Source of the DNA: Hymenobacter cellulosivorans
GTDB taxonomy: Bacteria > Bacteroidota > Bacteroidia > Cytophagales > Hymenobacteraceae
DNA length: 64,000 nt
NCBI RefSeq assembly: GCF_022919135.1
Contig: NZ_CP095049.1
Location: forward strand, 5,589,001-5,653,000
Reading direction: 5' to 3'
In this document: in pieces, positions 12,243-41,031 of the stretch
Layout of the letters: every line of letters begins with the position of its first letter
Position numbering within the stretch: the first letter of the stretch is position 1
Translations under genes and position numbers: made by a program
Notes under the pieces: generated by a model
The model's input: only the letters and a program-made list of their open reading frames with translations
Databases searched by the model: none
Told to the model about the DNA's origin: nothing

Positions 12243-12324
12243 GGTGCTTCGAGCCTGGTGCCTGGTGCTTGGCTCGAACGGTAACTTTACCCTACCAAGC
12301 ACTATATCCCAGGCACTAAGCACC
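12243..12324. repeat. Intergenic inverted repeat with 7-base word periodicity (GGTGCTT type)
   Basis: The left arm from 12243 is a run of degenerate heptads (GGTGCTT, CGAGCCT, GGTGCCT, GGTGCTT at 7-base steps). The right arm, up to 12324, is an imperfect reverse complement: GGTGCTT, GCCTGG, GTGCTTGG and GGTAA all find partners. The element occupies nearly the whole gap between apaG and the next gene. Related elements occur at 13166, 31381, 38003 and 38954. Confidence 0.7.
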
Positions 12325-12329
12325 GATTC

Positions 12330-13160
12330 TTGCTTTTCCAGGCTTTCAGTTACATCCGCTTTTTGTTCCGCTCGGGGAATGCACATGGGTTGCATTCCCC
12401 GTTCGTTTTTGGACTCTACACGCAAGTCATCAGTGCCGACAACGTCCGGGCTGCTTACGCGCCCATTGAAGCACGCCGGGCACAGCTTCGCCAGGATGAT
12501 ACCCTAATAACGGTGCGCGACTTTGGGGCCGGCTCCCATACCGGGGCGGGCCGGCAGCGCCGCCTGAGCAGCATTGTGCGCACAGCGGCCAAGCCCCGCC
12601 CCTTCGGCCAATTGCTATATCGGCTGGTCAATCATTTCCAGCCCCGCACGATTCTGGAACTAGGCACGTCACTGGGGCTTACCACTGCCTACCTGGCCTC
12701 CCCCGATTCCCGGGCCCGGGTTCTAACGTTCGAAGGCTGCCCGCAGACCGCAGCCGTAGCGCGGCAGACGTTCGAGGGACTGAACTTGCACAATATCGAG
12801 GTAGTCGAGGGGAACCTGGATGAGACGCTGGCCCCAGCTCTGGCCGCTCTGACTGCGCCACTGGACTTCGCCTTTTTCGACGGCAACCACCGCTATGAAC
12901 CTACCGTGCGCTATTTCGAGCAGTGCCTGCCCTACCGCACCGAGCAAAGCGTGTTTGTGCTGGACGACATTCACTGGTCGGCCGAAATGGAACAAGCCTG
13001 GACGACCATCAAGGCGCACCCCGACGTGCGCCTCACCATCGACCTGTTCTTTATTGGGCTGGTCTTTTTTCGCACCAATCAGCCCAAGCAGCATTTCACC
13101 CTACGCTTTAACAATCTAGTAGACAAGCTCCTGAACCGCGTTAAGCCGCTAGCTCCCTAG
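12330..13160 (+). CDS. Class I SAM-dependent methyltransferase
   Basis: Methyltransferase with a Rossmann fold resembling O-methyltransferases. SAM motif I is ILELGTSLGLTTAYLA (about 109-124), motif II ends in TFEGCPQTA, and the acidic motif is FAFFDGNHRYEPT. The N-terminal part has FRSGNAHGLHSPFVF, which I recognise as conserved in Bacteroidota homologues. No ATG is available in frame, so the TTG at 12330 is the best start. The substrate is unknown. It is convergent with kdsA across a 28-bp perfect hairpin. Confidence 0.8.
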   Translation: MLFQAFSYIRFLFRSGNAHGLHSPFVFGLYTQVISADNVRAAYAPIEARRAQLRQDDTLITVRDFGAGSHTGAGRQRRLSSIVRTAAKPRPFGQLLYRLVNHFQPRTILELGTSLGLTTAYLASPDSRARVLTFEGCPQTAAVARQTFEGLNLHNIEVVEGNLDETLAPALAALTAPLDFAFFDGNHRYEPTVRYFEQCLPYRTEQSVFVLDDIHWSAEMEQAWTTIKAHPDVRLTIDLFFIGLVFFRTNQPKQHFTLRFNNLVDKLLNRVKPLAP

Positions 13161-13165
13161 CGTTT

Positions 13166-13230
13166 TTTAGTGGTCTGTTCTTAGTTGTCCGTTGTTAGTA
13201 AGAACGGACAACTAAGAACAGACCACTAAA
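13166..13230. repeat. Perfect 28-bp intergenic hairpin with heptad words, between convergent genes
   Basis: Arms 13166-13193 and 13203-13230 are exact reverse complements with a 9-base loop. The left arm and loop read as heptads of the type TYNGTTG at 13167, 13174, 13181 and 13188. Together they span almost the entire 72-base gap between the methyltransferase stop and the kdsA stop. It may act as a bidirectional terminator, but unlike the other terminators here it has no GC core. Confidence 0.85.
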
Positions 13231-13232
13231 CT

Positions 13233-14057
13233 CTACCGCACAGCTTCCCGCACGCGGGTGAGCTTCACCAGCAGGGCCTCTAGCTGGTCGAGAGCCAGCA
13301 TGTTGGCGCCGTCTGATTTGGCCGTGGCAGGTGTAGGGTGGGTCTCGATGAACAGACCGTCGGCGCCAACGGCAATGGCGGCTTTGGCAATGGTTTCAAT
13401 CAGGGCGGGCTGGCCGCCGGTGACGCCGCTGGCCTGGTTGGGGCGCTGCAAAGAGTGGGTTACGTCCATCACCACGGGCACGCCAAAGCTGCGCATGGCA
13501 GGCAGGTTGCGGAAGTCCACCACCAGGTCAGAATAGCCGAAGGAATTGCCCCGGTCGGTAAGAATTACGTGCTCATTGCCCGACTGCTTAATCTTGTCCA
13601 CAGCAAACTGCATGGATTCCCCGTTCAGGAACTGGCCTTTCTTTACGTTGACGACTTTGCCGGTTTTGGCGGCCGCAATCAGCAAATCGGTTTGTCGGCA
13701 CAGGAAAGCCGGAATCTGAAGCACGTCCACGTATTCGGCCGCCATGGCCGCCTCGTCGGATTCGTGGATGTCGGTCACGGTAGGCACGCCGATTTCGCGG
13801 CTTACTTTCTGCAGGATGCGCAGGGCCGTTTCGTCGCCGATACCGGTAAAGGAATCCAGGCGGGAACGGTTGGCCTTGCGGTAAGAGCCCTTGAAAATAT
13901 AGGGAATCTGGAGCTTGTCGGTCATGTGCTTCACCTTTTCGGCGATGCGCAGGGCCATGTCTTCGCCCTCAATGACGCAGGGTCCGGCCATCAGAAAAAA
14001 CTGACCGGAGTTGGTATTGCGGAAGTGAGGCAGCGCGGCGGTGAGGGACTCTATCAT
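13233..14057 (-). CDS. kdsA: 3-deoxy-8-phosphooctulonate synthase (KDO-8-P synthase)
   Basis: Joins arabinose-5-phosphate and phosphoenolpyruvate to make KDO-8-phosphate for lipid A core synthesis. It has 274 residues, a TIM barrel of the DAHP synthase I/KdsA family. Visible motifs are LMAGPCVIEG (22-31), FKGSYRKANRS, the stretch QIPAFLCRQTDLL, and GADGLFIETHP near the C-terminus. A GACCTTTG sequence at 14083-14090 (minus strand) could be its -7 promoter box. Confidence 0.95.
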   Translation of the reverse strand: MIESLTAALPHFRNTNSGQFFLMAGPCVIEGEDMALRIAEKVKHMTDKLQIPYIFKGSYRKANRSRLDSFTGIGDETALRILQKVSREIGVPTVTDIHESDEAAMAAEYVDVLQIPAFLCRQTDLLIAAAKTGKVVNVKKGQFLNGESMQFAVDKIKQSGNEHVILTDRGNSFGYSDLVVDFRNLPAMRSFGVPVVMDVTHSLQRPNQASGVTGGQPALIETIAKAAIAVGADGLFIETHPTPATAKSDGANMLALDQLEALLVKLTRVREAVR

Positions 14058-14099
14058 AGGTAGTTTCTGGAAGTGTAGCAGACAAAGGTCGTCAGAATC

Positions 14100-14381
14100 T
14101 TAGTTGGCACCTGTTTTTCTACGGCGATTATCCGAAAGCCAGGGCCAAGGGATGTCACGAAACAATGAAATAACGGCCCAGAGCAGCACGGCGCAGAAAA
14201 CAAAAAAGATTGGGTAGACGTCCGCATCATTCGGCGTCATGAACTCACCGGCCGCCGACTGGGTGCGCACCCGACCAATCGAGTTATAAATGCCGTAGCC
14301 CCACAATGCCGTCAGCAAAGCTAGCAGCAGCGCCACACTGCCAAGTAGAAGCTTGAGCAAGAGCAAGAGCAGGTTCCACAT
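14100..14381 (-). CDS. Small membrane protein, unknown function
   Basis: 93 residues from the ATG at 14381, chosen because longer versions overlap the upstream methyltransferase. There is a leucine-rich first membrane segment (about 3-28) and a second one (IFFVFCAVLLWAVISLF, about 58-74). A short charged tail RRRKTG follows. I do not recognise a family. It lies 10 bases after the TPMT-like methyltransferase, so the two are probably co-transcribed. Confidence 0.6.
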   Translation of the reverse strand: MWNLLLLLLKLLLGSVALLLALLTALWGYGIYNSIGRVRTQSAAGEFMTPNDADVYPIFFVFCAVLLWAVISLFRDIPWPWLSDNRRRKTGAN

Positions 14382-14391
14382 TGATCTTCGG

Positions 14392-15000
14392 TTAGCCTGC
14401 TTTTTTGCGCAGGCACATATATAGCTCCTTGCCCTGCCGGGGCTTGATAGAATTAAAAGCCGGCGCGAAATGCACGAAGTCGAAATAAGGCGCGAAGTAG
14501 GCTTCATACTCGACTCGGCTCCCACCAAACGGTGGGCCGGCCGCAGCAAACTCGGTGTCGAAGAGCAAACCCATGAGCGTGCCGCCGGTCCGGAGCAGCG
14601 CGGCGCACTGCCGGGCGTAGTCGGGGCGTAATCCGGGGTTCAGGGCGCAGAAAAATGTCTGCTCCACGATTAAATCATAGGCTGGCACGGTGGGTAGCGC
14701 AAAAAAATCCTGTTCCACCAGATGTTCGGCCGGAAATCCGGGAACCCGCTGGTGCAGGTCACGTAAGGCTTCGGGAGCAATATCGGCCACGAAAACATTC
14801 TCAAAACCGGCAGTATGCAGATATTCAGCCTCATAGCCCCGACCAGCACCCGGAATCAGGATGCGGGCCGCGTGGGGCAGGCTCATTTGCTGAAAATAAT
14901 CGCGCAGGGGCGGCGTTATCGCGCCAGCATCCCAGCCGGTTTGCCCGGTGTTGTAACGCCCGCTCCAGTAGGCGGCATCAAGCTCTGAATCCGAATGCAT
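14392..15000 (-). CDS. TPMT-family SAM-dependent methyltransferase
   Basis: 202 residues resembling the thiopurine/thiol S-methyltransferase family, which methylates small thiols, selenium or halide substrates. The conserved N-terminus has YWSGRYNTGQTGWD. SAM motif I is ARILIPGAGRGYEAEYL (about 45-61) and the acidic residue is in VFVADIAPEAL. LIVEQTFFCALNP is typical of the family. The substrate is unknown. Confidence 0.85.
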   Translation of the reverse strand: MHSDSELDAAYWSGRYNTGQTGWDAGAITPPLRDYFQQMSLPHAARILIPGAGRGYEAEYLHTAGFENVFVADIAPEALRDLHQRVPGFPAEHLVEQDFFALPTVPAYDLIVEQTFFCALNPGLRPDYARQCAALLRTGGTLMGLLFDTEFAAAGPPFGGSRVEYEAYFAPYFDFVHFAPAFNSIKPRQGKELYMCLRKKAG

Positions 15001-15026
15001 GCGGATGTAGTATTTATTCGCGAAAC

Positions 15027-15056
15027 TTGCCTAGGTAGGCAATCCCTTTATTTTTG
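15027..15056 (+). promoter_or_regulatory. Bacteroidota-type promoter for the coiled-coil membrane protein
   Basis: TTG at 15027-15029, a 19-base spacer and TATTTTTG at 15049-15056, which matches the -33/-7 consensus. The ATG is at 15114, giving a leader of roughly 50 bases. Confidence 0.65.
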
Positions 15057-15113
15057 TGCATAAAGGTAACCCACCGTCCGGACTGTCCGGGCTTCATTTA
15101 ACCCTTTCCCGCA

Positions 15114-16061
15114 ATGGAACAAGACCAAAGCTCCGAGCCCAAGAACAACAACCGCGTCCTGCTGATAGTGGCCCTGATCCTGGTTCTGCTGGGCATTAAC
15201 GGCGTGCTGTTTTATATGAACCAGCAAAAGGGCGCACAAAATGAACAGCTCACAGCCGATATCAAAGTCAAGGATGCCAAGCTGGAAGAACAGATCAAGC
15301 AATACGAAGCGCTGAAAGCCGATTTCGAGCGCCAGAGCCAGGAAGTGCAGGGTATGGGCCTGGCCAACGACTCGCTGGAAGCCAAAATTGCGTCCATCAA
15401 TGCCGATCTGCTCAAGCTGCGCTCCTTCAAGGCCGGCAGCTTTTCTATTTCCGAGCAGCGCCGCTTCAAACAGCGCGCCGCCAACTTCGAAAACCAACTG
15501 CGGAAGAAAGATGAGGAAATTGCTCAGCTGAAAAGCGACAATGAAGCCCTCTACACCGAAACCAATACGCTGAAAGAGCGCCAGAACCGCCTTACCGACA
15601 CAATTACCACGGTGGTGCGGTCCAACCAGGAGCTGACCGAAAAAGTCAATATTGCCTCGCGCCTGCAGGCCGAGAATATCCGCGTGGGCGTGGTCAACTC
15701 GCGCAACAAGGAAAAGGACGACGACGATAACGAGTTCAAGGCCAAGCGCGTGGAGAAGGTGAAAGTAACCTTCAACCTGGCCCGCAACGACGTGTCGCCG
15801 AAGGAAACCAAGGAAATCATGATGCGCCTAATTGAGCCCGACGGCGCGGCCCTCTACAACCTGAGCACCGGTGGTGGCACCTTCATGATTGAAGGCTCGG
15901 AGGCTTTCTACACGGCCAAGCAGGATATCGTGTTCGACAACACCCGCCAGCCCGTGCAGTTCCTCTACGCCAAGGGCGCACCCTACAAAACCGGTCTGCA
16001 CACCGTGGAGCTGTATTCCGGCGGCGTAATGATTGGCAAATCGACCTTCACACTCAAGTAG
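15114..16061 (+). CDS. Membrane-anchored coiled-coil protein, unknown function
   Basis: 315 residues. After a short charged cytoplasmic lead there is one membrane segment (VLLIVALILVLLGINGVLFYM, about 15-35). A long coiled coil follows (about 40-190, rich in E/K/Q heptads). The C-terminal 110 residues form a predicted beta-rich domain (VKVTFNLARNDVSPKETKEI). Such proteins are often named SMC-like only because of the coiled coil; I see no ATPase motifs. It has its own promoter and a strong terminator. Confidence 0.8.
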   Translation: MEQDQSSEPKNNNRVLLIVALILVLLGINGVLFYMNQQKGAQNEQLTADIKVKDAKLEEQIKQYEALKADFERQSQEVQGMGLANDSLEAKIASINADLLKLRSFKAGSFSISEQRRFKQRAANFENQLRKKDEEIAQLKSDNEALYTETNTLKERQNRLTDTITTVVRSNQELTEKVNIASRLQAENIRVGVVNSRNKEKDDDDNEFKAKRVEKVKVTFNLARNDVSPKETKEIMMRLIEPDGAALYNLSTGGGTFMIEGSEAFYTAKQDIVFDNTRQPVQFLYAKGAPYKTGLHTVELYSGGVMIGKSTFTLK

Positions 16062-16080
16062 GTCGGGGCACTACGCTGCT

Positions 16081-16142
16081 AGTAGTAAGCCCAATAAAAA
16101 AGCCCCGACCTGCGTCGGGGCTTTTTTATTGGGCTTACTACT
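16081..16142. terminator. Perfect 29-bp bidirectional terminator
   Basis: Arms 16081-16109 and 16114-16142 are exact reverse complements with a 4-base loop. The core is GCCCCGAC/GTCGGGGC, then A6/T6. It separates two convergent genes; the cphA stop lies 3 bases beyond. Confidence 0.92.
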
Positions 16143-16144
16143 TT

Positions 16145-18787
16145 TTATGAAGCTAGCTCCGCCGGAATCTTGGATTCGTATTCGTCCAGCTTCTGCAGCG
16201 TCGCTTTAATATTCTCGGTGAGCAACACGATAACCGAGCCCGGCTTGGCCGTTTGCATCACGTGGTCAATGGCGTCCATTTCGTCCTCGATATAGGTGAT
16301 GGGTAAATCGGCTTTGTCGAGGCGCAGGCCGCGGGTCATGATTTCCTTGAGCTCCTCCTTGGTCTTGCCACGCAAATCCCGGTCTTGCCGCAGAATAATC
16401 TCGTCGAAGATGCGGCCCGCCACGCGCGAGAAGCTGAGCGTATCCTCGTCGCGCCGGTCGCCCAGGCCCGATACCACCCCGACTTTGTGAGTAGCCTCGG
16501 TAGCATTCAGGAACTCGGCGAATTTCTCAATGCCGTGGGTGTTGTGGGCATAGTCGACGATGACCTCGAAGGTCGGAAACTTGTACACGTTCATACGGCC
16601 CGGCGTCTTGGCCGCCGAGGGCACGAAAGTGCGCAGAGCCAGCTTAATGTCATCCTTGTCGAAGCCGTAGCAGTAGCAAGCCAAAGCTGCCGCCAGGCAG
16701 TTTTCGATGTTGAACGTAGCCCGGGCCCCAAACGTAATTGGAAACTCCGCGGCCCGGTCGATGCGCAGCTTGTAGCTATTCTTGTAGATGGTGATATAGC
16801 CTTCCTCGTACACGGCAGCCAGGCCCCCATTCTCGACATGCTCCCGAATTCGGGGGCTGTGTTCGTGCATGCTAAACAAGGCGACCCGGCACTCCAGCTT
16901 CTCGCGCATGGCGTAGGTGTAGTCGTTGTCGGCATTGAGCACGGCCCAGCCGTTTTTGCGCACGGTACGGGGCAGCACGCCTTTTACCTGCGCCATTTCC
17001 TCGACGGTGTAAATGTCGCGCATGCCCAGGTGGTCGGCCGCTACGTTGGTCACAATGGCCACGTCGCAAGTATGGAAGCCCAGCCCGGAGCGTAGCATAC
17101 CGCCGCGGGCCGTTTCGAGCACCGCAAAGTTCACCGTCGGGTCCTTGAGCACAAACTCGGCGCTTTGCCCACCGGTACAGTCACCGCTCTGCAGCTGTAC
17201 CCCCTGAATATAAATGCCGCTAGTAGTCGTGTGGCCAACTTTGTAGCCCTTGGATGCTACAATGTGCGACAAAATATGTGTCGTCGTAGTTTTGCCGTTG
17301 GTGCCGGTCACGGCGAAAATCGGAATCCGGGCGTTTACGCCGGGCGGAAACAGCATGTCAACTACTGGCTCCGCCACGTTACGGGGCAGGCCGTCGGCCG
17401 GAGAAATGTGCATCCGGAAGCCGGGAGCTGCGTTTACCTCAATCACCGCACCCCGGGTTTCATTCAAAGGAATGGCAATGTCGGAAGTCAGCACGTCGAT
17501 GCCGCAAATGTCGAGGCCCACGATGCCCGCCACGCGCTGAGCCAATAACACGTTGTAGGGGTGCACCAGGTCCGTAACGTCGGTAGCAGTGCCACCGGTG
17601 CTGATGTTGGCCGTACTTTTCAGATACAGCTGCTGGCCTTCGGGCAATACCGAGTCCAGAGTTAGGTCCTGGGACTTAAGAATGTCCAGAGTGTGCTGGT
17701 CAGCCTTAATACTGGTAAGTACCTTTTCGTGGCCAATACCGCGGCGCGGATCCTTGTTCACCTCATCAATCAGTTCCTGAATGGTGTTGGTCCCGTTACC
17801 CGTAACAGCGGCTGGGGTGCGCTTGGCGGCGGCAATGAGCTTGCCGTTGACCACGAGCAGGCGGTGGTCGTCGCCCTCAATGAACTGCTCCACAATAACG
17901 GCGCGGGAATACACCTGGGCGGCTTTCAGGCCTTCCACGGCATCTTCCCAGTTGGTGATACGAATCGTGGCGCCCTTGCCGTGGTTGCCATCCAGCGGCT
18001 TCGTCACGATGGGGTAGCCCAGGTCTTCCACAGCATCACGCAGGCCTGCTTCCGAATACACCGTTGTGCCGGTAGGCACCGGCACGCCAGCATCCTTGAG
18101 CATGGCCTTAGTGCGGTTTTTATTGCCGGCCACCTCCACGCCCGCATGAGAGGTGTAGCTGGTCGTCGTGGCCCAGATGCGCTTCTGGTTCACTCCGTAG
18201 CCCAATTGGATGATGCTGCTATTCTTGAGCTGGATGTAGGGAATGTTGCGCGAGGCGGCTTCCGACACAATACTCCAGGTGCTGGGCCCCACAAACTCGT
18301 CTTCCCGGATTTCGTGCAACTCGTCGACAATGGGCTTCACGTCGACGGTTTTGCCCAGGCACAGGTCTTCCACGAGCTGCACGGCGGCTTCGGCTGCCAC
18401 GCGCCCGGCCCGCTCTTCCTGGTAGGCAAACACGACGAATTCCACGCCGGCCTGGTGAGCCGGGTACGACTTGCCCCAGTACACGGGCATGCCCGCCATA
18501 CGCTGCAAAGCCAGCGCCACGTGCTGGATAACGTGGCCCAGCGGTTCGCCGTCCAGAAGCTGCTCTGTGGTCAGAGGTGGGTGCTTATGAACTGATTTTT
18601 CGGTTTCGCTGGCCGGGACCTGGTCCAGCTCGGGTAGTAATGTTGGTAATTGCTCGGCTAGGGCCGGAAAGTGGGTCGACCACACATCGGCCTGCTCGCC
18701 CAGGTCGACTTTCATTACAATCAGCTTGTAATGCTTGACGGACCAGTAGCTTGGGCCGCGCATCGTGCGCAGGTCAATGATTTTCAT
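16145..18787 (-). CDS. cphA: Cyanophycin synthetase
   Basis: ATP-dependent synthesis of the storage polymer multi-L-arginyl-poly-L-aspartate. The start is at 18787 (MKIIDLRTMRGPSYWSV), the typical CphA N-terminus; 880 residues is the normal length. The central ATP-grasp domain carries KPLDGNHGKGATI and CGIDVLTSDIA. The C-terminal Mur-ligase domain has P-loop TGTNGKTTTTH and the later VDYAHNTHGIEKF. No cyanophycinase or isoaspartyl dipeptidase gene lies nearby. Downstream is the 29-bp terminator. Confidence 0.95.
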   Translation of the reverse strand: MKIIDLRTMRGPSYWSVKHYKLIVMKVDLGEQADVWSTHFPALAEQLPTLLPELDQVPASETEKSVHKHPPLTTEQLLDGEPLGHVIQHVALALQRMAGMPVYWGKSYPAHQAGVEFVVFAYQEERAGRVAAEAAVQLVEDLCLGKTVDVKPIVDELHEIREDEFVGPSTWSIVSEAASRNIPYIQLKNSSIIQLGYGVNQKRIWATTTSYTSHAGVEVAGNKNRTKAMLKDAGVPVPTGTTVYSEAGLRDAVEDLGYPIVTKPLDGNHGKGATIRITNWEDAVEGLKAAQVYSRAVIVEQFIEGDDHRLLVVNGKLIAAAKRTPAAVTGNGTNTIQELIDEVNKDPRRGIGHEKVLTSIKADQHTLDILKSQDLTLDSVLPEGQQLYLKSTANISTGGTATDVTDLVHPYNVLLAQRVAGIVGLDICGIDVLTSDIAIPLNETRGAVIEVNAAPGFRMHISPADGLPRNVAEPVVDMLFPPGVNARIPIFAVTGTNGKTTTTHILSHIVASKGYKVGHTTTSGIYIQGVQLQSGDCTGGQSAEFVLKDPTVNFAVLETARGGMLRSGLGFHTCDVAIVTNVAADHLGMRDIYTVEEMAQVKGVLPRTVRKNGWAVLNADNDYTYAMREKLECRVALFSMHEHSPRIREHVENGGLAAVYEEGYITIYKNSYKLRIDRAAEFPITFGARATFNIENCLAAALACYCYGFDKDDIKLALRTFVPSAAKTPGRMNVYKFPTFEVIVDYAHNTHGIEKFAEFLNATEATHKVGVVSGLGDRRDEDTLSFSRVAGRIFDEIILRQDRDLRGKTKEELKEIMTRGLRLDKADLPITYIEDEMDAIDHVMQTAKPGSVIVLLTENIKATLQKLDEYESKIPAELAS

Positions 18788-18990
18788 AGGTTGAAAGGGA
18801 GGGAAAGGATAGTTAGGAGCCCGTTTGTACGCGGGAATGAAATGTAGGGATAATGATTTAGGAAACCCTAGTTTGCCTGATTTTATGCTTTCCCCGCAAA
18901 CTCTTTCAGTTTCAGCCAATCAACTAGATGACCTCCGTATAAATCGCCGAAAAAATATGTATAGTTTACTATATCAACTGCCTAATAAGC

Positions 18991-19022
18991 AAAAAACCCC
19001 GGTCGGGGCTAATCGACCGGGG
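18991..19022 (-). terminator. Terminator of tRNA-Cys
   Basis: On the minus strand, CCCCGGTCG and CGACCGGGG (18997-19005 and 19014-19022) form a 9-bp stem followed by six T. Confidence 0.8.
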
Positions 19023-19056
19023 CACAGAGCTACTGAAAACAGGAACTAATAAAGAG

Positions 19057-19127
19057 AGGTGACGAGCGGATTCGAACCGCTGTAGGAGGTTTTGCAGACC
19101 TCTACCTAGCCACTCGGTCACGTCACC
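19057..19127 (-). tRNA. tRNA-Cys (anticodon GCA)
   Basis: 71-base cloverleaf. The acceptor arm is GGTGACG paired with CGTCACC plus discriminator T. The anticodon stem GAGGT/ACCTC holds loop CTGCAAA, so the anticodon is GCA. The T arm is GCGG-TTCGAAT-CCGC. CCA is not encoded. A good promoter lies just upstream at 19145-19175 and a terminator downstream. Confidence 0.96.
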
Positions 19128-19144
19128 GTGTGTGGATTGGGTTG

Positions 19145-19175
19145 CAAAGCTACGGCATATTCTTCCTTTTCCAAA
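19145..19175 (-). promoter_or_regulatory. Promoter of tRNA-Cys, consensus -33/-7
   Basis: On the minus strand: TTTG (19175-19172), a 19-base spacer, then TAGCTTTG (19152-19145). This is a full match to the Bacteroidota primary promoter. It predicts a start a dozen or so bases before the tRNA 5' end. Confidence 0.8.
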
Positions 19176-19290
19176 TCAACCGGGCGTTTTTCGTTCTTGA
19201 TATGCTTAATACGTTGGCTTTCTGGCAAAAGAAATACCCAAGCAGGTAACGCTTGCAAGCGCCACAAGAAGCAGGTACCGGTAATTCATA

Positions 19291-19317
19291 AAAAAGGCCC
19301 CGACTTGCGCCGGGGCC
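19291..19317 (-). terminator. Terminator of rpsA
   Basis: On the minus strand GGCCCCG (19317-19311) pairs with CGGGGCC (19302-19296), followed by a run of T. It lies 27 bases after the rpsA stop. Confidence 0.75.
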
Positions 19318-19343
19318 TCTTCTATTTTCGACTAAAAGCAAGC

Positions 19344-21371: not shown

Positions 21372-21480
21372 AATACTGGTTGATCCTACTATACACGGCC
21401 GGCCTAGGATCAAATCCGGGTCCGCGTTATGAGTAACTTCCTGAGGCACAGCCCCAGACCCTGCCACCCTGGCGGGGCGG

Positions 21481-21488
21481 CAAAGATA
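21481..21488 (-). promoter_or_regulatory. Probable rpsA promoter, -7 box
   Basis: TATCTTTG on the minus strand, an exact TAnnTTTG match, about 110 bases before the start codon. No clear -33 TTG at the usual spacing, so support is partial. It implies a leader of about 100 bases. Confidence 0.45.
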
Positions 21489-21547
21489 CGGAGTTTGCGG
21501 CAAGTTTACTAGAGCCCAAACCAGCTGAAAAGCATTACTTTGAGCAG

Positions 21548-22147: not shown

Positions 22148-22162
22148 ACCCATTTGCGCAGT

Positions 22163-29604: not shown

Positions 29605-30102
29605 TTAGTTGGTCAGATACGGATGCCAGTTTTGGTCGATAGTACCAGCACTGAGCCTGAGAAAACCCGACAGGGTCGGTTTCTTGGGCTGTTGCCTGAT
29701 GGTGAGCCCGGCCTCGGAAGGTGTGCGGTGGCCCTTGGCGTGGTTGCAGCGGGCACAGGCCGTGAGCAGGTTGGTCCACGATGAGTCGCCGCCGCGGGAG
29801 CGGGGCAGTACGTGGTCCAGGGTCAGATTTTTGGTCGAGCCGCAGTATTGGCACTCGAAATGGTCCCGCTTCATGATGTTGTGCCGGCTCAAGGCAATGC
29901 CCTTGTAGGGCACCCGCACGTAGCGCTGCAACCGGATGATGCTGGGCTTGGGATAGGCAGAAGAAATGGTACGCAGCACCCCGTGTTCCGACTTGGCTAT
30001 CATCTCGGCTTTATCGAGAAAGAGTAGCACAAAAGCCTTCTGCACGCTGCACAGCGTAATGGCGGTGTAGTCGCCATTGAGAACTAGCACTTTTTGGTCC
30101 AT
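29605..30102 (-). CDS. HNH endonuclease
   Basis: 165 residues, the form found chromosomally in many Bacteroidota. The zinc-binding cysteines are Cys84/Cys87 (CQYCG) and Cys116/Cys119 (CARCN). The HNH core is Asp96-His97 (LDHVLPRSRGG), Asn111 and His121. The N-terminal 80 residues (VLVLNGDYTAITLCSVQKA) are conserved in this type. No methylase, transposase or phage gene is nearby. Biological target unknown. Confidence 0.88.
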   Translation of the reverse strand: MDQKVLVLNGDYTAITLCSVQKAFVLLFLDKAEMIAKSEHGVLRTISSAYPKPSIIRLQRYVRVPYKGIALSRHNIMKRDHFECQYCGSTKNLTLDHVLPRSRGGDSSWTNLLTACARCNHAKGHRTPSEAGLTIRQQPKKPTLSGFLRLSAGTIDQNWHPYLTN

Positions 30103-30574
30103 ACGCTCGGTGAAAAGATCATCTGATACAGCGAAAGCTAGATGATTCTAAGCGTATTAACAATAGCGGCTGGCTTAAGTTTCCTCCGGCGAAAGTGGTT
30201 ACACGGCGGCGCTATATAGCAGTATTTGGGCCCCTGCTAGTAAGCGCTGCCCGCCGGCCTGGGGCCAACCTGCCCATTTGGGAATATGCCCTAGGGCCTC
30301 CCAAAGGCTGATAAATGCACGCGGACACGTGTAGGAAGCCCGCGCCAGCGTAGCGGAGGTTCCCGGCCAGGTGTGGAAGGCCCGCAGCGGGGTTGCGGAT
30401 AGGATTGGGCCAGAAAGCCGCCCGCCTCTTACTCTGGCTGGAATAAAGGGCTTTGTGGTAAAAGGACGGTTGTCGCTAGCAGAAGACGGCTTGACGCCTT
30501 TTGATGCGCGGAATATCCTGCTTCCTCGCAAGGACCCAGGTTGTGCATTAGCACCTTAGCACATTACCCCCACC
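30103..30574. other. Long gene-free stretch of unknown content
   Basis: 472 bases between two minus-strand genes. An open frame of 110 codons exists at 30199-30531 on the minus strand. It is arginine/proline/serine-rich with no recognisable domain, so I treat it as chance. Composition changes from AT-richer (30103-30180) to GC-rich. It could be a decayed repeat or gene. Confidence 0.35.
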
Positions 30575-31375: not shown

Positions 31376-31380
31376 AGATA

Positions 31381-31546
31381 GTGAAATGGTGAGGTGATGA
31401 AATGGTGAGCTATTGTTCCGCTGGGTTAGTTGTTTCCAGCCAGCGTCACCAGTTTATTACAAATATCCACGAAACTCCCGCTTAAAAGCCAGTTGGCCAA
31501 ATATCTTCCCCAAAACTCACCATTTCACTGCCCACTATTTCACCAC
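31381..31546. repeat. Inverted repeat with reiterated GTGAAATGGTGAG words filling the gap between two genes
   Basis: The left arm (31381-31409) contains the word TGAAATGGTGAG twice, 16 bases apart. The right arm (31516-31546) contains its reverse complement twice, once with changes. The arms are about 106 bases apart. The element runs from just before the start codon of the NlpC/P60 gene to the base next to the smpB stop codon. It belongs to the same type as the elements at 12243, 13166 and 38954, but the period is not strictly 7. Confidence 0.7.
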
Positions 31547-32020: not shown

Positions 32021-32120
32021 GATGGGGTGCAAAAGCCGCCGCGCGACCTGGGCAGCGCAGCGGGTATTCTAGAGAGTAGCGTAGGTACGCAAATTCGCCG
32101 GATTGGGCTGACAGCAGGAG

Positions 32121-32146
32121 GTAGAGACGCAACTATGCGTCTCTAC
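32121..32146. repeat. Short dispersed palindrome of the GTAGAGACGC type at the tsaD stop
   Basis: GTAGAGACGCA (32121-32131) and TGCGTCTCTAC (32136-32146), a perfect 11-bp stem with a 4-base loop. It contains the tsaD stop codon. From memory, palindromes starting GTAGAGACGC recur in genomes of several Bacteroidota and cyanobacteria; only one copy was noticed here. Confidence 0.7.
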
Positions 32147-33153: not shown

Positions 33154-33391
33154 GCGTATTTTGTGGTGTTAGGGGCCGCCCGGCCAGCTCTTGTAGGCCG
33201 GCGGGCTGCATAATTTTACAACAAAGGTCGTTTAAAACACTAAACCAAGCAGTTTGTCCAGTGTCTGTGTATTATAAAGAGCAGGTGGCCGCTCCGGTCC
33301 CTATTTTATAAGTAGTTCGGTAGGCCAGGCAGCCATTGCCGCAAATCCCGCATCTTCGTACGCAAGCCCAACATTTTCCAGTTCCCTTTCT

Positions 33392-36300: not shown

Positions 36301-37999
36301 GGCCGAACCCCTGCTCAGCTTCCTGTTCCGGGACATGGGCGGCACGGCTGCGGGCACCCTGCGCCTGACCGGCCGCCTGGCCGCACCTAACCTGACCGGC
36401 AACGTAGACGTGACCAATGGCAAGCTCACCTTTATTTACCTGGGCACCACTTACACCTTCTCCGACCGAATCCGCTTCGGCGAAGACCGGATTAGCTTCC
36501 GCGAAATCAAGCTGCGCGACCCGCTGGGCAATACCGGCGTACTCGATGGCAATATTTTCCACCAGGGCTTCCAGAACATGCGCCTGGGTTTGCGGGCCGA
36601 CTTTACCCGCCTGCTGGTGCTCAACACGACCCGCAAAGACAATGAACTGTACTTCGGCACGGCCTATGCCACCGGCAACGCGGTAATCTTTGGGCCCACC
36701 AACAACCTGGTGGTGAACGTGCGGGCCCGCAGCGACGCGGGCACCCGCCTGTCGTTGCCGCTCGACAATGCCGCCAAGGCCGAGCAGGCCAGCTACATCA
36801 AATTCGTGAACCGCAACCTGCGCGACACCACGACCACAGTGAAGGTGCCCACGGCAGGGGAAGGCAAAATTGACTTGTCGGGCCTGCGCCTGAACATGAA
36901 CCTGGACGTGACGCCCGACGCCTACGTGGAAATCCTGCTCGACGAAAGCACCGGCGACGTTATTCGGGGCTCAGCGGCCGGGCAGCTGCGCCTCAACATC
37001 GACACCCGCGGCGACTTCAACATGTTCGGCCAGATTGAGATTGTGCGCGGGGCGTACAACTTCACTTTGCAGGGCCTTATCAACAAGGAATTCGTAGTGC
37101 GGCCGGGCGGTACGATTTCCTGGAACGGCGACCCGCTGGCTGGCGAAATGAACGTGACGGCGGCCTACACCCAGCGCACCTCCCTGGCCCCGATTCTGGG
37201 GCAGGCAGCCCTCAACAGCCGGGCCGTGGTGCCCGTAACGGCCGTAATGAACCTGAGCGGCCCGCTGCTGCTGCCCGTGATTCGCCTGAGCCTGGAGTTC
37301 AACGACGCGCCCTCGTCCCTGGAAGGCGACCTGACGGCCTTCACCTCATCCTTGCGCAACGACGAGCAGGAACTCAACCGGCAGGTATTCAGCCTCTTGG
37401 TATTCAAGCAACTTTCCCCACCCGGCCAGTTCACCCAGATCAGCCTGCGCGGCAACGACAACACGGTGCAGAACAGTCTGGGCCAGATTCTGAGCACTCA
37501 GCTGGGCTTGCTCACTTCCCAGATTGATCAGAATCTGGAAATCGACTTCAACATCAACGGCCTGACCTCCGAGCAGCTCCAGGCCCTGCAGGTGCGCCTG
37601 AGCTATAACTTTCTCAACGGCCGCCTGCGCGTGACCCGGGAGGGCGGCTTTAGCAACACCACCACGACCAACGGCGCGGGAACCGGCACAGGCACCGGAA
37701 CCGGCACGGGCACCACCGCCCAGGCTTCCCTGCTCGGCGACCTAAGTTTGGAATACTACCTGCGCCCCGATGGAAAGTTCCGGGCCAAGCTACGCTACGA
37801 AACCACGCCCCGCGACTTCACCCCCGACGAATCGGCGTTGACCAACCAGGCCCGGGCCGGCATTAGCTTGCTGCACACCGAGCAGTTCGACTCGTTCCGG
37901 GAGCTGTTTTCGCGCAAACGCCTGAGTCGCCGGGCCGCTGCCGCCCGTAAGGCCCGGGAAGTGCTCAACGTGGACGACGACCCGCGCACGGTCCTTTAA
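33392..37999 (+). CDS. tamB: TamB-like translocation/assembly module protein (DUF490)
   Basis: 1,535-residue AsmA/TamB-type envelope protein. In this family a long beta-taco groove bridges the inner and outer membranes and helps outer-membrane protein or lipid delivery. The GTG start at 33392 gives one N-terminal membrane segment (ILLSLLLLLGLVLGGVLVAL, about 10-29) followed by beta-rich repeats. The C-terminal TamB domain (about 1170-1440) includes VRGAYNFTLQGLINKEFVVRPG and ends with VRLSYNFLNGRLRVTREGG. Near the end is a (Gly-Thr)6 tract coded by 37679-37714. Divergent from tsaD. Confidence 0.9.
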   Translation: MPRFVSITLKILLSLLLLLGLVLGGVLVALRIPSVQTNLAHRAAAILTEKLGQRVIVGRVDVRPFTRVVLEGVRVLDRQGGELFNIGKADADIELFSIFDPSHLHVGKLTLEEPRFAQITYANQPDSTNLSQFLASVKRLIGPSDTTKVSKPFDFQIKEIGLRNGRFVLDRRNKPRAETYGRTIDYDHMYIDSIYGDVSQLWLRADTIHAQIDGLRAVDTPSQTRLRELTANMTYADKFWEFAGLDLRVGNSRLKPYIKFDFKHFLNFVDFNDSVKVTARLDSSRVYSDDIALFAPQPFIRDLKETVLISGEAKGYVKNFTTKNLDVVYGQNTRVRGNINVQGLPNLKESFVEMRLKPSIIDGRDIRRYIPASGWPYVARLGTVRLDGQFLGFYNDFVANGAFRTALGDVVSDVNIKFKNDPAYSTYEGQVKTTAFQLGKLLGDESVVRDITMNGRVEGVGFTPERARLKANASVQSIWLNGYRFHNITTNGQFSRQSFDGQLAVNDPNLQIDANGTIDLNKARQAFDVKARVRRADLRALGLTKQSVVIATTADVQFAGLKLDALIGRAILRNSRLSFAGRTVPIDTFDVVSQQTGVQRRVTVRSEVLNLTADGNFNFSTVARDVQTLLTEYELNFESNDAAIASYYRRKKQRPIQDYQIALDLYLKRANPVLQLFVPSLTLSDFSRIDGSFRNGPTSIFSLAGHFNGIQYDSVRAVNTDFEFNTSKLPYQPEVLAQANITSERQVLPGLGNTEKFYVEGVWDQERINFSTSLAQTNTTNKAAINGSLVFLPQSVQIIFRQSGVNLLGKDWNIAADNSVVISGGGKEFNIQNFTLSNGPQSISAQGFISNDPSKQLQLAVKDFDLTTLNSLTNQNIAGRVNAAGTISGVYGPLKINSTLGVDSLQFDKTLIGNVRGSSEWNNRNGQLLIDADVLRDQQRVVRLAGTYAPHAKEQQLNLTAVLDNAPVKLAEPLLSFLFRDMGGTAAGTLRLTGRLAAPNLTGNVDVTNGKLTFIYLGTTYTFSDRIRFGEDRISFREIKLRDPLGNTGVLDGNIFHQGFQNMRLGLRADFTRLLVLNTTRKDNELYFGTAYATGNAVIFGPTNNLVVNVRARSDAGTRLSLPLDNAAKAEQASYIKFVNRNLRDTTTTVKVPTAGEGKIDLSGLRLNMNLDVTPDAYVEILLDESTGDVIRGSAAGQLRLNIDTRGDFNMFGQIEIVRGAYNFTLQGLINKEFVVRPGGTISWNGDPLAGEMNVTAAYTQRTSLAPILGQAALNSRAVVPVTAVMNLSGPLLLPVIRLSLEFNDAPSSLEGDLTAFTSSLRNDEQELNRQVFSLLVFKQLSPPGQFTQISLRGNDNTVQNSLGQILSTQLGLLTSQIDQNLEIDFNINGLTSEQLQALQVRLSYNFLNGRLRVTREGGFSNTTTTNGAGTGTGTGTGTGTTAQASLLGDLSLEYYLRPDGKFRAKLRYETTPRDFTPDESALTNQARAGISLLHTEQFDSFRELFSRKRLSRRAAAARKAREVLNVDDDPRTVL
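37679..37714 (+). repeat. Hexanucleotide tandem repeat (Gly-Thr codons) in tamB
   Basis: Six GG(A/C)-AC(A/C/G) units in a row, coding six Gly-Thr pairs between the TamB domain and the C-terminal stretch. It is in frame, so gain or loss of units would change linker length without a frameshift. Confidence 0.8.
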
Positions 38000-38002
38000 T
38001 CG

Positions 38003-38033
38003 AATTCAGCATTCTCAATTCAGAATTCATTAA
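38003..38033. repeat. Heptad-word repeat (AATTCAG type) between tamB and ftsX
   Basis: Heptads AATTCAG, CATTCTC, AATTCAG and AATTCAT start at 38003, 38010, 38017 and 38024. It has the same 7-base period as the intergenic elements at 12243, 13166 and 38954, but with only one arm, in the 54-base gap between the genes. Confidence 0.6.
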
Positions 38034-38040
38034 CCAAAGT

Positions 38041-38048
38041 TACCTTTG
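38041..38048 (+). promoter_or_regulatory. Probable ftsX promoter, -7 box, implying a leaderless or near-leaderless mRNA
   Basis: TACCTTTG matches TAnnTTTG exactly and ends 5 bases before the ATG at 38054. Transcription would start at or next to the start codon. No good -33 box is present, so this needs mapping of the 5' end. Confidence 0.45.
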
Positions 38049-38053
38049 CCTGC

Positions 38054-38947
38054 ATGGCCCAAAACCGCCCGACCCGTAAGAAAAAGCTTGGTAGCTACCC
38101 GCACCTGATGGTCGTGTTCAGCATCACGCTGTCCTTGCTGGTCATTGGCTTGTTTGGCTTGCTGCTCATTCATGCCCACAAGCTGAGCAATCTGGTCAAG
38201 GAAAATATTGAAATGCAGGTCTACCTCGACCGGGACCTGCCCGAAACCCAGCTCCTTCGACTACAGCAGGATCTGAGCCGCAAGAAGTACGTGGCCTACA
38301 AGAATGACCAGCCCCAGGTCCGGTTCTTGTCCAAGGAAGAAGGTGCCAAACAGTTTCTGGACCAGACCGGCGAAGACGTCGTGCAGTTCCTCGGCGACAA
38401 TCCGCTGCGGGACGCCTACCTGCTGAAAATCAGCGCCGACTACACTGATTCGACCCAGATGCGGCGCATCGTGCAGGAGCTGCGGGCCGAGCCGGGCGTA
38501 TTCGAGGTCGAATATGTGCAGAGCTTTATCGACTCGGTCAATAAGAACCTGCGCAAGATCAGCTTGGTGCTGCTGGGCTTTGCCTTAGTGCTAACCCTAG
38601 TCGTCACGGTCCTGATTAACAACACCATCAAGCTGGCCTTGTTCTCGCAGCGCTTCCTGATCCGGAGCATGCAGCTGGTAGGCGCCACGTCCTTTTTCAT
38701 TCAGCGGCCGTTCCTGCGCCGGGCCACCTGGCAGGGCTTTGCCAGCGGCACCATTGCCGCGCTGCTGCTGCTAGCCGGCCTTCAATACGCCTATTTGCAG
38801 CTGGAGGAGCTCCGCCTGCTGCGCGATGAGCGCCTCATCGGCATCCTGATGGTAAGCATGGTGCTGCTGGGCTGCGGCATCGGCTTTCTGAGCTCCTACC
38901 GCGCCGTGCGCAAGTACCTGGGCATGTCACTCGACGATTTATATTGA
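38054..38947 (+). CDS. ftsX: Cell division protein FtsX (permease-type)
   Basis: Inner-membrane partner of FtsE that controls peptidoglycan hydrolases at division. 297 residues: N-terminal membrane segment (about 18-38), a periplasmic domain (about 45-165) and three C-terminal segments (ISLVLLGFALVLTLVVTVLI, TIAALLLLAGLQYAYL, LIGILMVSMVLLGCGIGFL). Conserved features: VYLDRDL and QLVGATSFFIQRPFLRRATWQG. No ftsE lies beside it. It is the first gene of the run ftsX-DUF3098-uppP-truB-ribF seen across Bacteroidota. Confidence 0.92.
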   Translation: MAQNRPTRKKKLGSYPHLMVVFSITLSLLVIGLFGLLLIHAHKLSNLVKENIEMQVYLDRDLPETQLLRLQQDLSRKKYVAYKNDQPQVRFLSKEEGAKQFLDQTGEDVVQFLGDNPLRDAYLLKISADYTDSTQMRRIVQELRAEPGVFEVEYVQSFIDSVNKNLRKISLVLLGFALVLTLVVTVLINNTIKLALFSQRFLIRSMQLVGATSFFIQRPFLRRATWQGFASGTIAALLLLAGLQYAYLQLEELRLLRDERLIGILMVSMVLLGCGIGFLSSYRAVRKYLGMSLDDLY

Positions 38948-38953
38948 TTTTTT

Positions 38954-39038
38954 TAGTTGTTAGTTGCTGGTTGTCAGTTGTTAGAATATACCGACAAGCA
39001 GAACAACCTAACAACTGACAACCAGCAACTAACAACTA
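38954..39038. repeat. Perfect 31-bp heptad-word hairpin between ftsX and the DUF3098 gene
   Basis: Arms 38954-38984 and 39008-39038 are exact reverse complements with a 23-base loop. The left arm is made of heptads of type YRGTTGY at 38954, 38961, 38968 and 38975. The right arm ends 3 bases before the ATG of the downstream gene, so in the mRNA the start region borders a very stable stem. It fills nearly all of the 94-base gap. Confidence 0.88.
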
Positions 39039-39041
39039 CCT

Positions 39042-39368
39042 ATGGAACCCACGCAAACTCCCCGCTTTGCCTTCGGCAAGCGCAACTACCGTCTGATGTG
39101 GCTCGGGCTGGCTATTCTGGCCGCGGGCTTCATCACCATGACCCTGGACTCGGCCGACTACGGCGAAGGTTTCCTGGGTATCACCCTGGGCCCGATCTTG
39201 CTGGCTGTGGGCTTTATCATCGAGTTCTGGGCCATCATGGCCAAGCCCGGTGAGGCTGCTCCTGTGGCTACCGACACCGTAACCCGCACCGAAACGGCCC
39301 CGCAGCCCGGCACTCCCGTGGCTCCGGTAGCCCCCGCTCCCACGGCTCCTACCTACAAGCGTTCCTAA
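39042..39368 (+). CDS. DUF3098 small membrane protein
   Basis: 108 residues, two membrane segments (LMWLGLAILAAGFITMTL, about 18-35, and GITLGPILLAVGFIIEFWAIM, about 46-66). The family motif FAFGKRNYRLMWLG is at 9-22. The tail (about 70-108) is Ala/Pro/Thr-rich and disordered. It stands between ftsX and uppP in a conserved gene order; function unknown. Its stop directly abuts the uppP start. Confidence 0.88.
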   Translation: MEPTQTPRFAFGKRNYRLMWLGLAILAAGFITMTLDSADYGEGFLGITLGPILLAVGFIIEFWAIMAKPGEAAPVATDTVTRTETAPQPGTPVAPVAPAPTAPTYKRS

Positions 39369-40157
39369 ATGAACTACTGGCACGCCCTAATTCTGGCTAT
39401 TGTCGAAGGCTTAACCGAGTTTTTACCCGTTTCCAGCACCGGCCACATGATTATCGTGGCCAACCTGCTGGGTATCGGCCAATTACCGTTTACCGAAACC
39501 TATATTACCTCCATCCAGTTTGGGGCTATCCTGTCGGTGGTGGTGCTTTACTGGCGCCGCTTTCTGCAGAGCTTCGACTTCTACGTGAAGCTGGCCGTGG
39601 CCTTTGTGCCCTTTGGCTTGCTGGGCTTTCTGCTCAAAGACGTCATTGCCGACCTGCTCAAGAGCGTGACAGTGGTGGCCTCCTCGCTGGTCGTGGGCGG
39701 CATCGTGCTGCTCTTTGTGGACCGCTGGTTTAGCGAGTCGCGCAAGCAGGTAACGACGCCCAGCACGCTGCAGGCCCTCAAAATCGGCCTGTTTCAGTGT
39801 TTGGCTTTGGTGCCCGGCGTGTCGCGCTCAGCGGCTACCATCGTGGGCGGCCTGGCCCAGGGCTTCGACCGCCGCTCGGCCGCCGATTTCTCCTTTCTAC
39901 TGGCCGTGCCTACCATGTTCGTGATTACGGCCTACGAGATGTACAAAACTTACAAGGTGAATGCGCCCGTGGCCGGCGACCTGAAAGTGCTGGCTTTCGG
40001 CAACGTGGTAGCCTTTATCGTGGCGCTGCTGGCCGTCAAGTCGTTCGTAAACTTTGTCTCGAAGTTCGGCTTCCGCGCCTTTGGCATGTACCGCATCATC
40101 GTGGGCGTCACCATTTTGGTCATGATTGCCCTGGGAATTAATCTGCAGTTGATATGA
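39369..40157 (+). CDS. uppP: Undecaprenyl-diphosphatase
   Basis: Recycles the lipid carrier by removing phosphate from undecaprenyl diphosphate; integral membrane (BacA family), linked to bacitracin tolerance. 262 residues with about eight segments. Signature motifs EGLTEFLPVSSTGHMI (13-28) and LVPGVSRSAATIVGG (about 147-161) carry the catalytic Glu/Ser/Arg. It overlaps truB by 4 bases (ATGA). Confidence 0.95.
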   Translation: MNYWHALILAIVEGLTEFLPVSSTGHMIIVANLLGIGQLPFTETYITSIQFGAILSVVVLYWRRFLQSFDFYVKLAVAFVPFGLLGFLLKDVIADLLKSVTVVASSLVVGGIVLLFVDRWFSESRKQVTTPSTLQALKIGLFQCLALVPGVSRSAATIVGGLAQGFDRRSAADFSFLLAVPTMFVITAYEMYKTYKVNAPVAGDLKVLAFGNVVAFIVALLAVKSFVNFVSKFGFRAFGMYRIIVGVTILVMIALGINLQLI

Positions 40158-40978
40158 GCCAGGAAAATACGGTTCAGCGCACGTTCGACTTTGAAACCGG
40201 CGAGGTTTTGCTGCTCGACAAACCCCTGACCTGGACTTCGTTTGACGTGGTGCGCAAGGTCAAGAACACGCTGCGCATCAAGAAAATCGGCCACGCCGGC
40301 ACCCTCGACCCGTTGGCTACCGGCCTGCTGATCTTGTGCACGGGCAAGAAAACCAAGCAGATTGACTTGATTCAGGCCCAGGAAAAAGAGTACACCGGTA
40401 CCTTCCGCCTGGGCCAGACCACCCCGTCGTTCGACCTGGAAACGCCCGTGGACGCTGAGCTGCCCTACGCCCACATTACGACCGAGCAACTGCAGGAAGC
40501 CGCCCGGGCCTTCACTGGCCTAATTCAGCAGACGCCGCCGCTGTACTCGGCCGTAAAAATCAACGGGGAGCGGGCTTACGAGGTAGCCCGCCGCGGCGAT
40601 ACGGCCGAAATCAAGTCCAAGGAAGTTACCATCAAGGAGTTTGAGCTGACCGGCATTGCGTTGCCCGACGTGCATTTCCGGGTGGTATGCACAAAAGGCA
40701 CTTACATCCGCAGCCTGGCCCGCGACTTTGGCCAGCACTTGGGCTGCGGGGCTCACCTGACCAAGCTTATTCGCACCCGCATTGGCGAGTACCGCGTGGA
40801 GGATGCCCTGACGATGGAAACCCTGGAAGCCCTGCGGCTGCCGCGGCCCGAGGGCGACGCCAACCGGCCCCCGCGCCCGGCTAAAGCCCGCCGCCCCGAG
40901 CAGCGCGCCGGCCTGGAGTATTTCCAGGCCAGCACCAATCCGGCTCCCGACTCAGACCCAACGGCTTCGGCTTCGTAA
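40154..40978 (+). CDS. truB: tRNA pseudouridine(55) synthase
   Basis: Makes pseudouridine 55 in the T loop of tRNAs. The catalytic Asp52 lies in GHAGTLDPLATGLL. QQTPPLYSAVKINGERAYEVAR and CTKGTYIRSLARDFG are further family motifs. 274 residues, including a Pro/Ala/Arg-rich C-terminal extension (about 235-274) in place of a long PUA domain. Translationally coupled to uppP. Confidence 0.95.
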   Translation: MSQENTVQRTFDFETGEVLLLDKPLTWTSFDVVRKVKNTLRIKKIGHAGTLDPLATGLLILCTGKKTKQIDLIQAQEKEYTGTFRLGQTTPSFDLETPVDAELPYAHITTEQLQEAARAFTGLIQQTPPLYSAVKINGERAYEVARRGDTAEIKSKEVTIKEFELTGIALPDVHFRVVCTKGTYIRSLARDFGQHLGCGAHLTKLIRTRIGEYRVEDALTMETLEALRLPRPEGDANRPPRPAKARRPEQRAGLEYFQASTNPAPDSDPTASAS

Positions 40979-41031
40979 AAAGCTACCCGGGCGAGACTTC
41001 GCTCATTCACCACTTCACTTATTTCCCTCCG
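40979..41031. other. Short gap with TTCAC words between truB and ribF
   Basis: 53 bases containing CATTCACCACTTCACTT near 41005-41022. This is the same word family as the right arm of the element at 31516-31546. No partner arm is present; possibly a relic of such an element. Confidence 0.35.

Follow-up and report, generated by a model that had tools for sequence, protein, structure and literature searches.

Palindromes with heptamer and octamer arms in the intergenic gaps of Hymenobacter, including a dispersed GTTG element

Several intergenic gaps within 64,000 nucleotides of the genome of Hymenobacter cellulosivorans (Bacteroidota, Cytophagales; the window hereafter, positions 5,589,001-5,653,000 of a single contig of 6.1 Mb, genome G000) harbour arrays of 7-base words, some of which fold back on themselves to form long hairpins. 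The question which this locus raises is how such arrays arise and how their arms come to match. A preliminary description of the window had assumed that each gap uses a word of its own and that the arrays, although produced by the same process, are not copies of one mobile repeat. We arrive at a different picture, to which we assign a probability of about 0.55: gaps of this kind hold genus-wide palindromic families whose arms are arrays like the short tandemly repeated repetitive (STRR) sequences of cyanobacteria, and at least one of these families is dispersed.

The 7-base period is by no means confined to the window. In a host sample of 1.613 Mb, comprising 1036 gaps and 1229 called genes, period-7 arrays are present in 23 gaps compared to a shuffled mean of 0.4, and period-8 arrays in 18 compared to 0.8. 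Lags 14 and 16 occur in 15 and 12 gaps, respectively (shuffled means 0.2 each), while every remaining lag between 3 and 20 is found in at most 7 gaps and periods 4-6 and 10-13 in 0-5. Among the called genes, lag 7 is seen only once and multiples of 3 dominate. These scans were scored by run (match +1, mismatch -1.5), since an earlier criterion of 22 matches in 28 was too strict and left them nearly empty; gaps of less than 30 or more than 1500 bases, or containing N, were excluded from the counts, and genes were called by a simple script, some gaps including missed coding sequence. The genome-wide enrichment on which the preliminary description had staked its proposal is clearly present, and its comparison with STRR sequences holds, as intergenic 7-nt tandem units are in excess over other lengths; period 8 is likewise in excess. 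A survey of 1912 gaps from 40 Hymenobacter sources (14 loci, 13 of Pontibacter and one of a Cyclobacteriaceae member, are excluded from the Hymenobacter counts) reveals arrays in 124 gaps, 70 with period 7 and 54 with period 8. In 76 of these 124 the gap folds with the array inside an arm, which is the case in 3 when the array alone is shuffled, so that paired arms are indeed a feature of the arrays. A permissive-pattern survey of 296 genomes across the phylum is noisy, the reversed control equalling the pattern in many genomes; G168 and G297 are prominent therein among the non-Hymenobacter genomes.

Several different words do exist among the elements, as had been noted, yet the assumption that each gap has its own is contradicted by the word GTTG-NNN, found in the window at 13161 and 38948. 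Searched as a 14-mer with at most 2 mismatches, it has 300 matches genome-wide, compared to 18 for the reversed control. With the copy at locus L252 as query, full-length matches (at least 70 bp, 70-84% identity) are obtained at 14 places in the 1.613 Mb, and this set includes the window hairpin at 38954-39038, whose full-length BLAST match to the L252 element amounts to 81-82%. Genome G005 has 3 full-length L252-like places in 161 kb within the 70-84% identity range, and many further full-length matches, reaching up to 91% over the whole element, exist in the sister genomes G005, G015 and G036. Over all loci examined, 58 copies correspond to 45 distinct places after merging those read from two loci, and 22 of the 45 are from this genome. 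The element is about 85 bp long, with arms of 31-33 nt and a loop of about 19 nt; its foot is TTTAGTTG, its ends read TTTAGTTG...CAACTAAA, and an alignment of 29 copies from several genomes reads TTTAGTTGTTAGTTGnTnGTTGTCAGTTGTTAG-loop-CTAACAACTGACAAC.... Four of six matches to the 19-nt loop in this genome lie within heptad-armed elements, which share it with 0-3 mismatches, two of these four carrying the exact loop in opposite orientation; the other two matches are without heptad arms. The same loop is present in 3 of 12 genomes searched (G005, G015 and G036). Furthermore, the order of the free triplets is shared among 27 anchored arms, a set partly retrieved by patterns which favour such arms (identity 0.67 compared to 0.56 with shuffled unit order, 0 of 500 shuffles as high). 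The GTTG units agree with the consensus in 452 of 464 core letters, whereas at the three free positions 93, 65 and 79 of 116 letters do so; this count is biased, as detection required GTTG, and the BLAST-selected 29-copy alignment gives the same pattern. Matches to the GTTG pattern range from 1 to 468 across 120 Hymenobacter genomes (median 25.5), with 208 in this genome and 287 in G117, and one Hymenobacter plasmid carries a 76% match to the element. At the level of sequence, these comparisons establish the GTTG family as one, apparently non-autonomous, element of about 85 bp which has been copied to many gaps. The commonest word is accordingly that of a dispersed family, whose members can be full-length and include the loop, and the claim that the elements are not copies of one repeat is not supported for it.

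How well the arms match can be assessed from the 29 aligned GTTG copies, in which 90% of the arm cells are paired. Cells changed on both sides number 30 compared to 12.8 in shuffled alignments, and further pair types 31 compared to 25.6 (0 of 500 shuffles in both cases). The two-sided changes mostly affect free bases in units two and three; at the two pairs of unit three which vary most, 11 and 12 of the 29 copies lack pairing. Likewise, independently detected arms from 38 gaps are more alike within than between gaps (p 2e-4).

A conspicuous property of the folded periodic elements is their polarity. Among these 76 elements, 68 have a G/T-rich 5' arm and 8 are AC-first, while non-periodic hairpins, taken from 900 gaps drawn at random out of the 1912, show the opposite preference (43 GT-first, 123 AC-first, 13 equal). 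Judged by GTTG and CAAC, GTTG comes first in 18 gaps of this genome and CAAC in 1, while 5 show one strand only. Among the unfolded arrays of co-directional gaps, 18 lie near the start codon and are A/C-rich, 8 lie near the stop codon and are G/T-rich, and 6 are arranged otherwise (16 unfolded arrays in non-tandem gaps are excluded from these classes). The feet of 17 elements lie at a median distance of 8 and 7 nt from the flanking genes. Location after stop codons and within convergent gaps would suit bidirectional intrinsic terminators, an explanation which nevertheless has next to no likelihood given the reversed polarity and the feet, which are T-rich (U-tract) in none of 17 periodic hairpins compared to 30% of 162 non-periodic ones. 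The periodic hairpins are not intrinsic terminators. We would like to mention that the convergent gap at window positions 16081-16142 contains a perfect 29-nt inverted repeat with an A-run and a T-run which does resemble a bidirectional terminator; similar long inverted repeats recur in the sample.

Orthologous gaps (up to 900 bases; for the alignment of arms in the gap between the NlpC/P60 gene and smpB, those of less than 60 or from 400 bases were excluded) reveal to what extent words are exchanged between species. After ftsX, whose product in the window is 96-97% identical to FtsX of H. lucidus, H. metallicola, H. elongatus and H. nitidus, a strict array of period 7 or 8 is found in 8 of 39 species with seven different words, among them TTAGTTG in this genome and H. 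lucidus, GTGCCTG in G005 and TTAATTG in H. setariae; further species have degenerate arrays as judged by eye. In H. lucidus (L031) the arms are identical to those of this genome and the loops are different. By eye, site L251 is occupied by GTTG elements in this genome, G046, G036 and G015, by an octad hairpin in G005 and by degenerate GTTG sequence in G014 and G039, with nothing alike in G022. The NlpC/smpB gap harbours octads in 17 of 35 species and heptads in none; the word, which is the same in both arms, is of GGTGA type in some species and GAGTGAAT in others, and about 14 of 27 aligned rows share, by eye, a common interior. In a close group of species the words in this gap are discordant with the tree (FastTree, no support values); therefore, either species have exchanged the allele of this gap or the arms have been overwritten where they stand. 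Some gaps are re-used above others (p 0.0005, uncorrected for relatedness), and words are common to 45 of 284 pairs within a genome compared to 383 of 4372 between genomes (p 0.007). The expectation that the word changes while the period stays is borne out in its first half: words differ between species, whereas no memory of the period beyond chance is detected among 65 elements in 10 orthologous gaps, where, once similar words are merged, 20 of 37 pairs have the same period (null mean 19.4, p 0.41). As a separate observation, the interior block of the window gap at 31376-31546, which surrounds CACGAAACTCCCGCTTAAAA and is common to those approximately 14 of 27 Hymenobacter rows, is possibly a promoter or RNA element.

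How these observations might fit together can be outlined as follows. A few non-coding palindromic repeat families would have arms made of heptamer or octamer arrays, each unit consisting of a 4-nt core and 3 or 4 free bases (GTTG-NNN, GTGC-NNN, GTGA-NNNN and others). The GTTG element, as its dispersed copies show, has been copied to many gaps. Inside an element, the units may diverge and multiply through slippage by 7 or 8 bases at a time, while hairpin-templated repair or selection for pairing, either of which would account for the observed covariation, probably keeps the arms largely complementary. Between stop and start codons insertion would be harmless, so that elements could persist there under selection, and loss followed by re-insertion may have led to the different words seen at orthologous gaps. 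In co-transcribed gaps, a perfect RNA hairpin of 28 to 31 bp would probably act as an RNase III-type cut site or insulator.

A number of observations weigh against this account. Dispersal as copies is shown for the GTTG family only; the words GTGC, AATTC and GTGA are likewise met with in several gaps and species. Of the features of miniature inverted-repeat transposable elements (MITEs), dispersed full-length copies with terminal inverted repeats are present, again for the GTTG family alone, and target-site duplications are lacking in 40 distinct places: duplications of at least 4 nt flank 2 of them, compared to 7% of mismatched flanks, and of at least 5 nt none. This genome has no match to Y1_Tnp (PF01797, the family of IS200 and of the REP-associated tyrosine transposases, RAYTs; REP, repetitive extragenic palindromic) and none to the reverse transcriptase family RVT_1; hence no autonomous partner was found in these two families, DDE families not having been searched. 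Locus L044 contains perfect, young arrays (TAGGGAG six times, AGCTGAT eight times, in the gaps 3892-4077 and 15809-15959) which are absent from its sister L047, where other, degenerate repeats are found, and which look like products of local slippage rather than insertion; length changes in unit steps are exemplified by loci of this type at the species level only. In the smpB gap, by eye, the arms differ in word around a still-alignable interior, for which insertion of a unit would not offer a simple explanation. Finally, the strictest measure of covariation, pairs with two-sided change, is weak (7 compared to 5.1, with 63 of 500 shuffles as high), and the 117 departing cells without a two-sided standard change consist of 30 G-U and 87 unpaired ones; therefore, there is no clear sign of selection on pairing at the RNA level.

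Some of these points are just what would be expected if the arrays arose in situ, as STRR sequences or long simple sequence repeats (LSSR), by polymerase slippage in steps of 7-8 bases with template switching copying the arm and without any mobile element. The sharp preference for lags 7, 8, 14 and 16, the young arrays of L044, the differing arms around the smpB-gap interior and a word vocabulary which overlaps between Hymenobacter and Pontibacter loci all agree with that explanation, and both heptamer excess and a proposed link between 7 nt and polymerase contact are in print (PMC4692102, PMC4679880). Against it stand the shared loops and dispersed full-length copies of the GTTG element, a unit order shared among arms and a core far more constant than the free bases, and we consider it possible but tentative. 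Selection of RNA hairpins, in which any pairing word would suffice to insulate transcripts, to be cut by RNase III or to protect mRNA ends, would be in accordance with covariation above shuffles, with very strong folds, with feet so close to the genes and with the re-use of the same gap by different words; yet G-U pairs are not in excess among the departing cells, 31 of 39 species have no strict array of period 7 or 8 after ftsX (some of these having degenerate or other hairpins), and elements occur in convergent gaps, too. This makes it an unlikely explanation of the elements. Still less probable, indeed very unlikely, is the mobilisation of REPIN-like elements (hairpins built from REP sequences) by a RAYT, a Y1 transposase of the HUH class. 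HUH chemistry is compatible with the lack of target-site duplications, a Y1_Tnp match is present in 83 of the 120 Hymenobacter genomes, and GTTG counts are somewhat higher in these (median 38 compared to 15, p 0.03, uncorrected for relatedness), a weak genus-wide association which leaves room for a role of Y1_Tnp in the past. A present requirement is argued against by high-copy genomes without any Y1_Tnp match, namely this genome and G117, and the foot TTTAGTTG lacks the GTAG/CGTC tag named in the title of PMC3733652. We have also considered a single, so far unrecognised process which would depend neither on known transposases nor on known reverse transcriptases. It might place matching arms made of a 7- or 8-base word into intergenic gaps, their polarity following the direction of the genes (rich in G/T behind stop codons, in A/C ahead of start codons), might overwrite an existing word in place and might act alike in Bacteroidota, cyanobacteria and Xanthomonas; we regard this proposal as doubtful.

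Returning to the individual gaps of the window (Table 1), the flanking genes, according to Pfam, comprise apaG, a methyltransferase gene, DAHP synthase, NlpC/P60, smpB, a tamB-like gene, ftsX, a DUF3098 gene and truB, the GTTG element at 38954-39038 being located between ftsX and the DUF3098 gene.

Table 1. Repeat elements in intergenic gaps of the window (window coordinates).
Element	Position	Strand	Remarks
Imperfect hairpin, GTGC-NNN heptads (GGTGCTT/GGTGCCT)	12241..12326	.	between apaG and methyltransferase gene (Pfam ApaG, Methyltransf_24)
Hairpin, GTTG-NNN heptads mixed with other heptads, convergent gap	13166..13230	.	arms 13166-13197, 13199-13230
Octad arms (GTGA-NNNN, GGTGAAAT) around conserved interior	31381..31543	.	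between NlpC/P60 gene and smpB
Unfolded AATTC-NN heptad array	38002..38028	+	upstream of ftsX; lag-14 z 3.3
Copy of ~85-bp GTTG-NNN palindromic element	38954..39038	.	arms 38954-38984 and 39008-39038, loop 38985-39007
Degenerate single A/C-rich octad-like arm (weak)	41003..41027	+	precedes gene after truB

Lag and fold statistics confirm a 7-base period with paired arms in three of the gaps reported earlier: 12237-12329 (lag-7 z 3.7, fold z -6.0 and -6.4, arms imperfect), 13161-13232 (arms of 28 to 32 nt, those of 32 nt being 97% complementary; lag-14 z 5.7, lag-7 z 3.8, fold z -11.8 and -12.2) and 38948-39041 (31-nt arms, 100% complementary; lag-7 z 6.0, fold z -13.3 and -13.8). The gap with the AATTCAG word (38000-38053) is heptad-periodic as described, with z 2.6 and 3.3 at lags 7 and 14, and unfolded in this genome (fold z -1.0); by eye, its G005 orthologue is two-armed with the same AATTC word. 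The orthologues of 12237-12329 have the same GTGC word in G005 and a degenerate version in G014, those of 13161-13232 other GTTG heptads in G005 and an unrelated hairpin in G014 (all by eye). The gap at 31376-31546 does fold (z -5.7 for the whole gap), while the word period of 15-16 bases formerly ascribed to its element does not stand: lag 16 reaches z 1.7, the best lags being 11 (z 3.1) and 8 (z 3.0). We read the unit as 8 bases because the arms are octads by eye and because period 8 was found for each of the 17 arrays that scored in the same gap of other species; the arms of this genome themselves fell below the scoring threshold of the orthologue comparison. The single-arm trace at 40979-41031 is present, though weakly periodic (lag 16 z 3.0, lag 8 z 1.5). 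Compared with Rfam at gathering score, the whole window yields a tRNA at 19057-19127 as its sole match, none of the repeat elements being matched.

Some further features were encountered in passing. By eye, the loci L098 (G000:C1:5577663), L039 and L047 contain nested hairpins in which heptad or octad arms surround a GTCATCCTGA..AAGGACCTT repeat; in this genome, this repeat in turn encloses a further hairpin of AAAGCCCTTTACC type, and similar nesting is seen in G005. Intergenic heptad arrays, A/C-rich before start codons, are also found in other Bacteroidota (L230, L239, L241), the word in L230 shifting stepwise along the array as judged by eye. Upstream of an HNH endonuclease-like open reading frame (29605-30102, minus strand), about 65 nt of non-coding sequence within 30103-30190 are near-identical in several Hymenobacter species; without Rfam match at gathering score, they are possibly a structured leader or small RNA.

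The closest known systems are the STRR/TAACTGA heptamers, the inverted GGGAATC arrays of Xanthomonas and the P6b stems of the Nostoc trnL intron. In the latter, heptad-built stems switch between word classes (Class I TDNGATT, Class II NNTGAGT; PMC4476775). As in Hymenobacter, heptads with fixed and free positions form one stem, and at a single locus one word class takes the place of another with little change to the fold; unlike in Hymenobacter, this happens at one cyanobacterial intron position instead of many intergenic gaps and, as described in that report, without octads or dispersed loop-sharing copies. For two Xanthomonas genomes, 186 and 183 heptad patterns with 70 and 75 inverted-pair cases are reported (PMC4692102), the intergenic heptads being GGGAATC in Xanthomonas and GGGGA(C/T)T in Nostoc (units GGGANTN), and the idea is cited there that 7 nt reflect polymerase contact. 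Inverted pairs, the same polarity and variation between the same genes in close relatives are shared with Hymenobacter, whereas the Xanthomonas heptads are one G-rich word discussed as a quadruplex former and, as far as that description goes, include neither octads nor a dispersed loop-bearing element. The common polarity hints at a cause which may be shared across phyla. TAACTGA heptamers are described from Beggiatoaceae, Cyanobacteria and five Bacteroidetes (PMC4679880). They, too, are intergenic and closely similar in word (CAACTGA/CAACTAA in Hymenobacter), and in Beggiatoaceae they stand mostly in this orientation before start codons. According to that account, which does not mention Hymenobacter, they are, however, repeated directly, apart from one inverted case, and are not predicted to form a structure themselves. 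With REP/REPIN and MITE families (PMC3116915, PMC3733652) the elements have in common that they are dispersed small intergenic palindromes; they differ from these in their periodic arms, in the absence of a Y1 match in this genome and of target-site duplications, and in having no known parent transposase (Y1_Tnp and RVT_1 sought, DDE families not searched). No account of folded heptads in Hymenobacter or Bacteroidota was found among the best-ranked matches in the open-licence full-text literature, in agreement with the preliminary description. Its estimate of novelty was nevertheless too high, as the arrays resemble a heptamer class already known from cyanobacteria, Xanthomonas and sulfur bacteria, and published accounts already cover heptamers from Bacteroidetes (PMC4679880) as well as inverted pairs of heptads from Xanthomonas (PMC4692102).

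Bacterial heptamer repeats have long been noted without an agreed mechanism. In this respect Hymenobacter offers a test system, with 120 sampled genomes ranging from 1 to 468 word matches, different words at orthologous gaps, folded arms and a second period of 8, and its high-copy genomes include some without Y1 transposase, the present one lacking RVT_1 as well. In Hymenobacter, the questions of why the unit has 7 bases and of what keeps the arms matched become directly testable.

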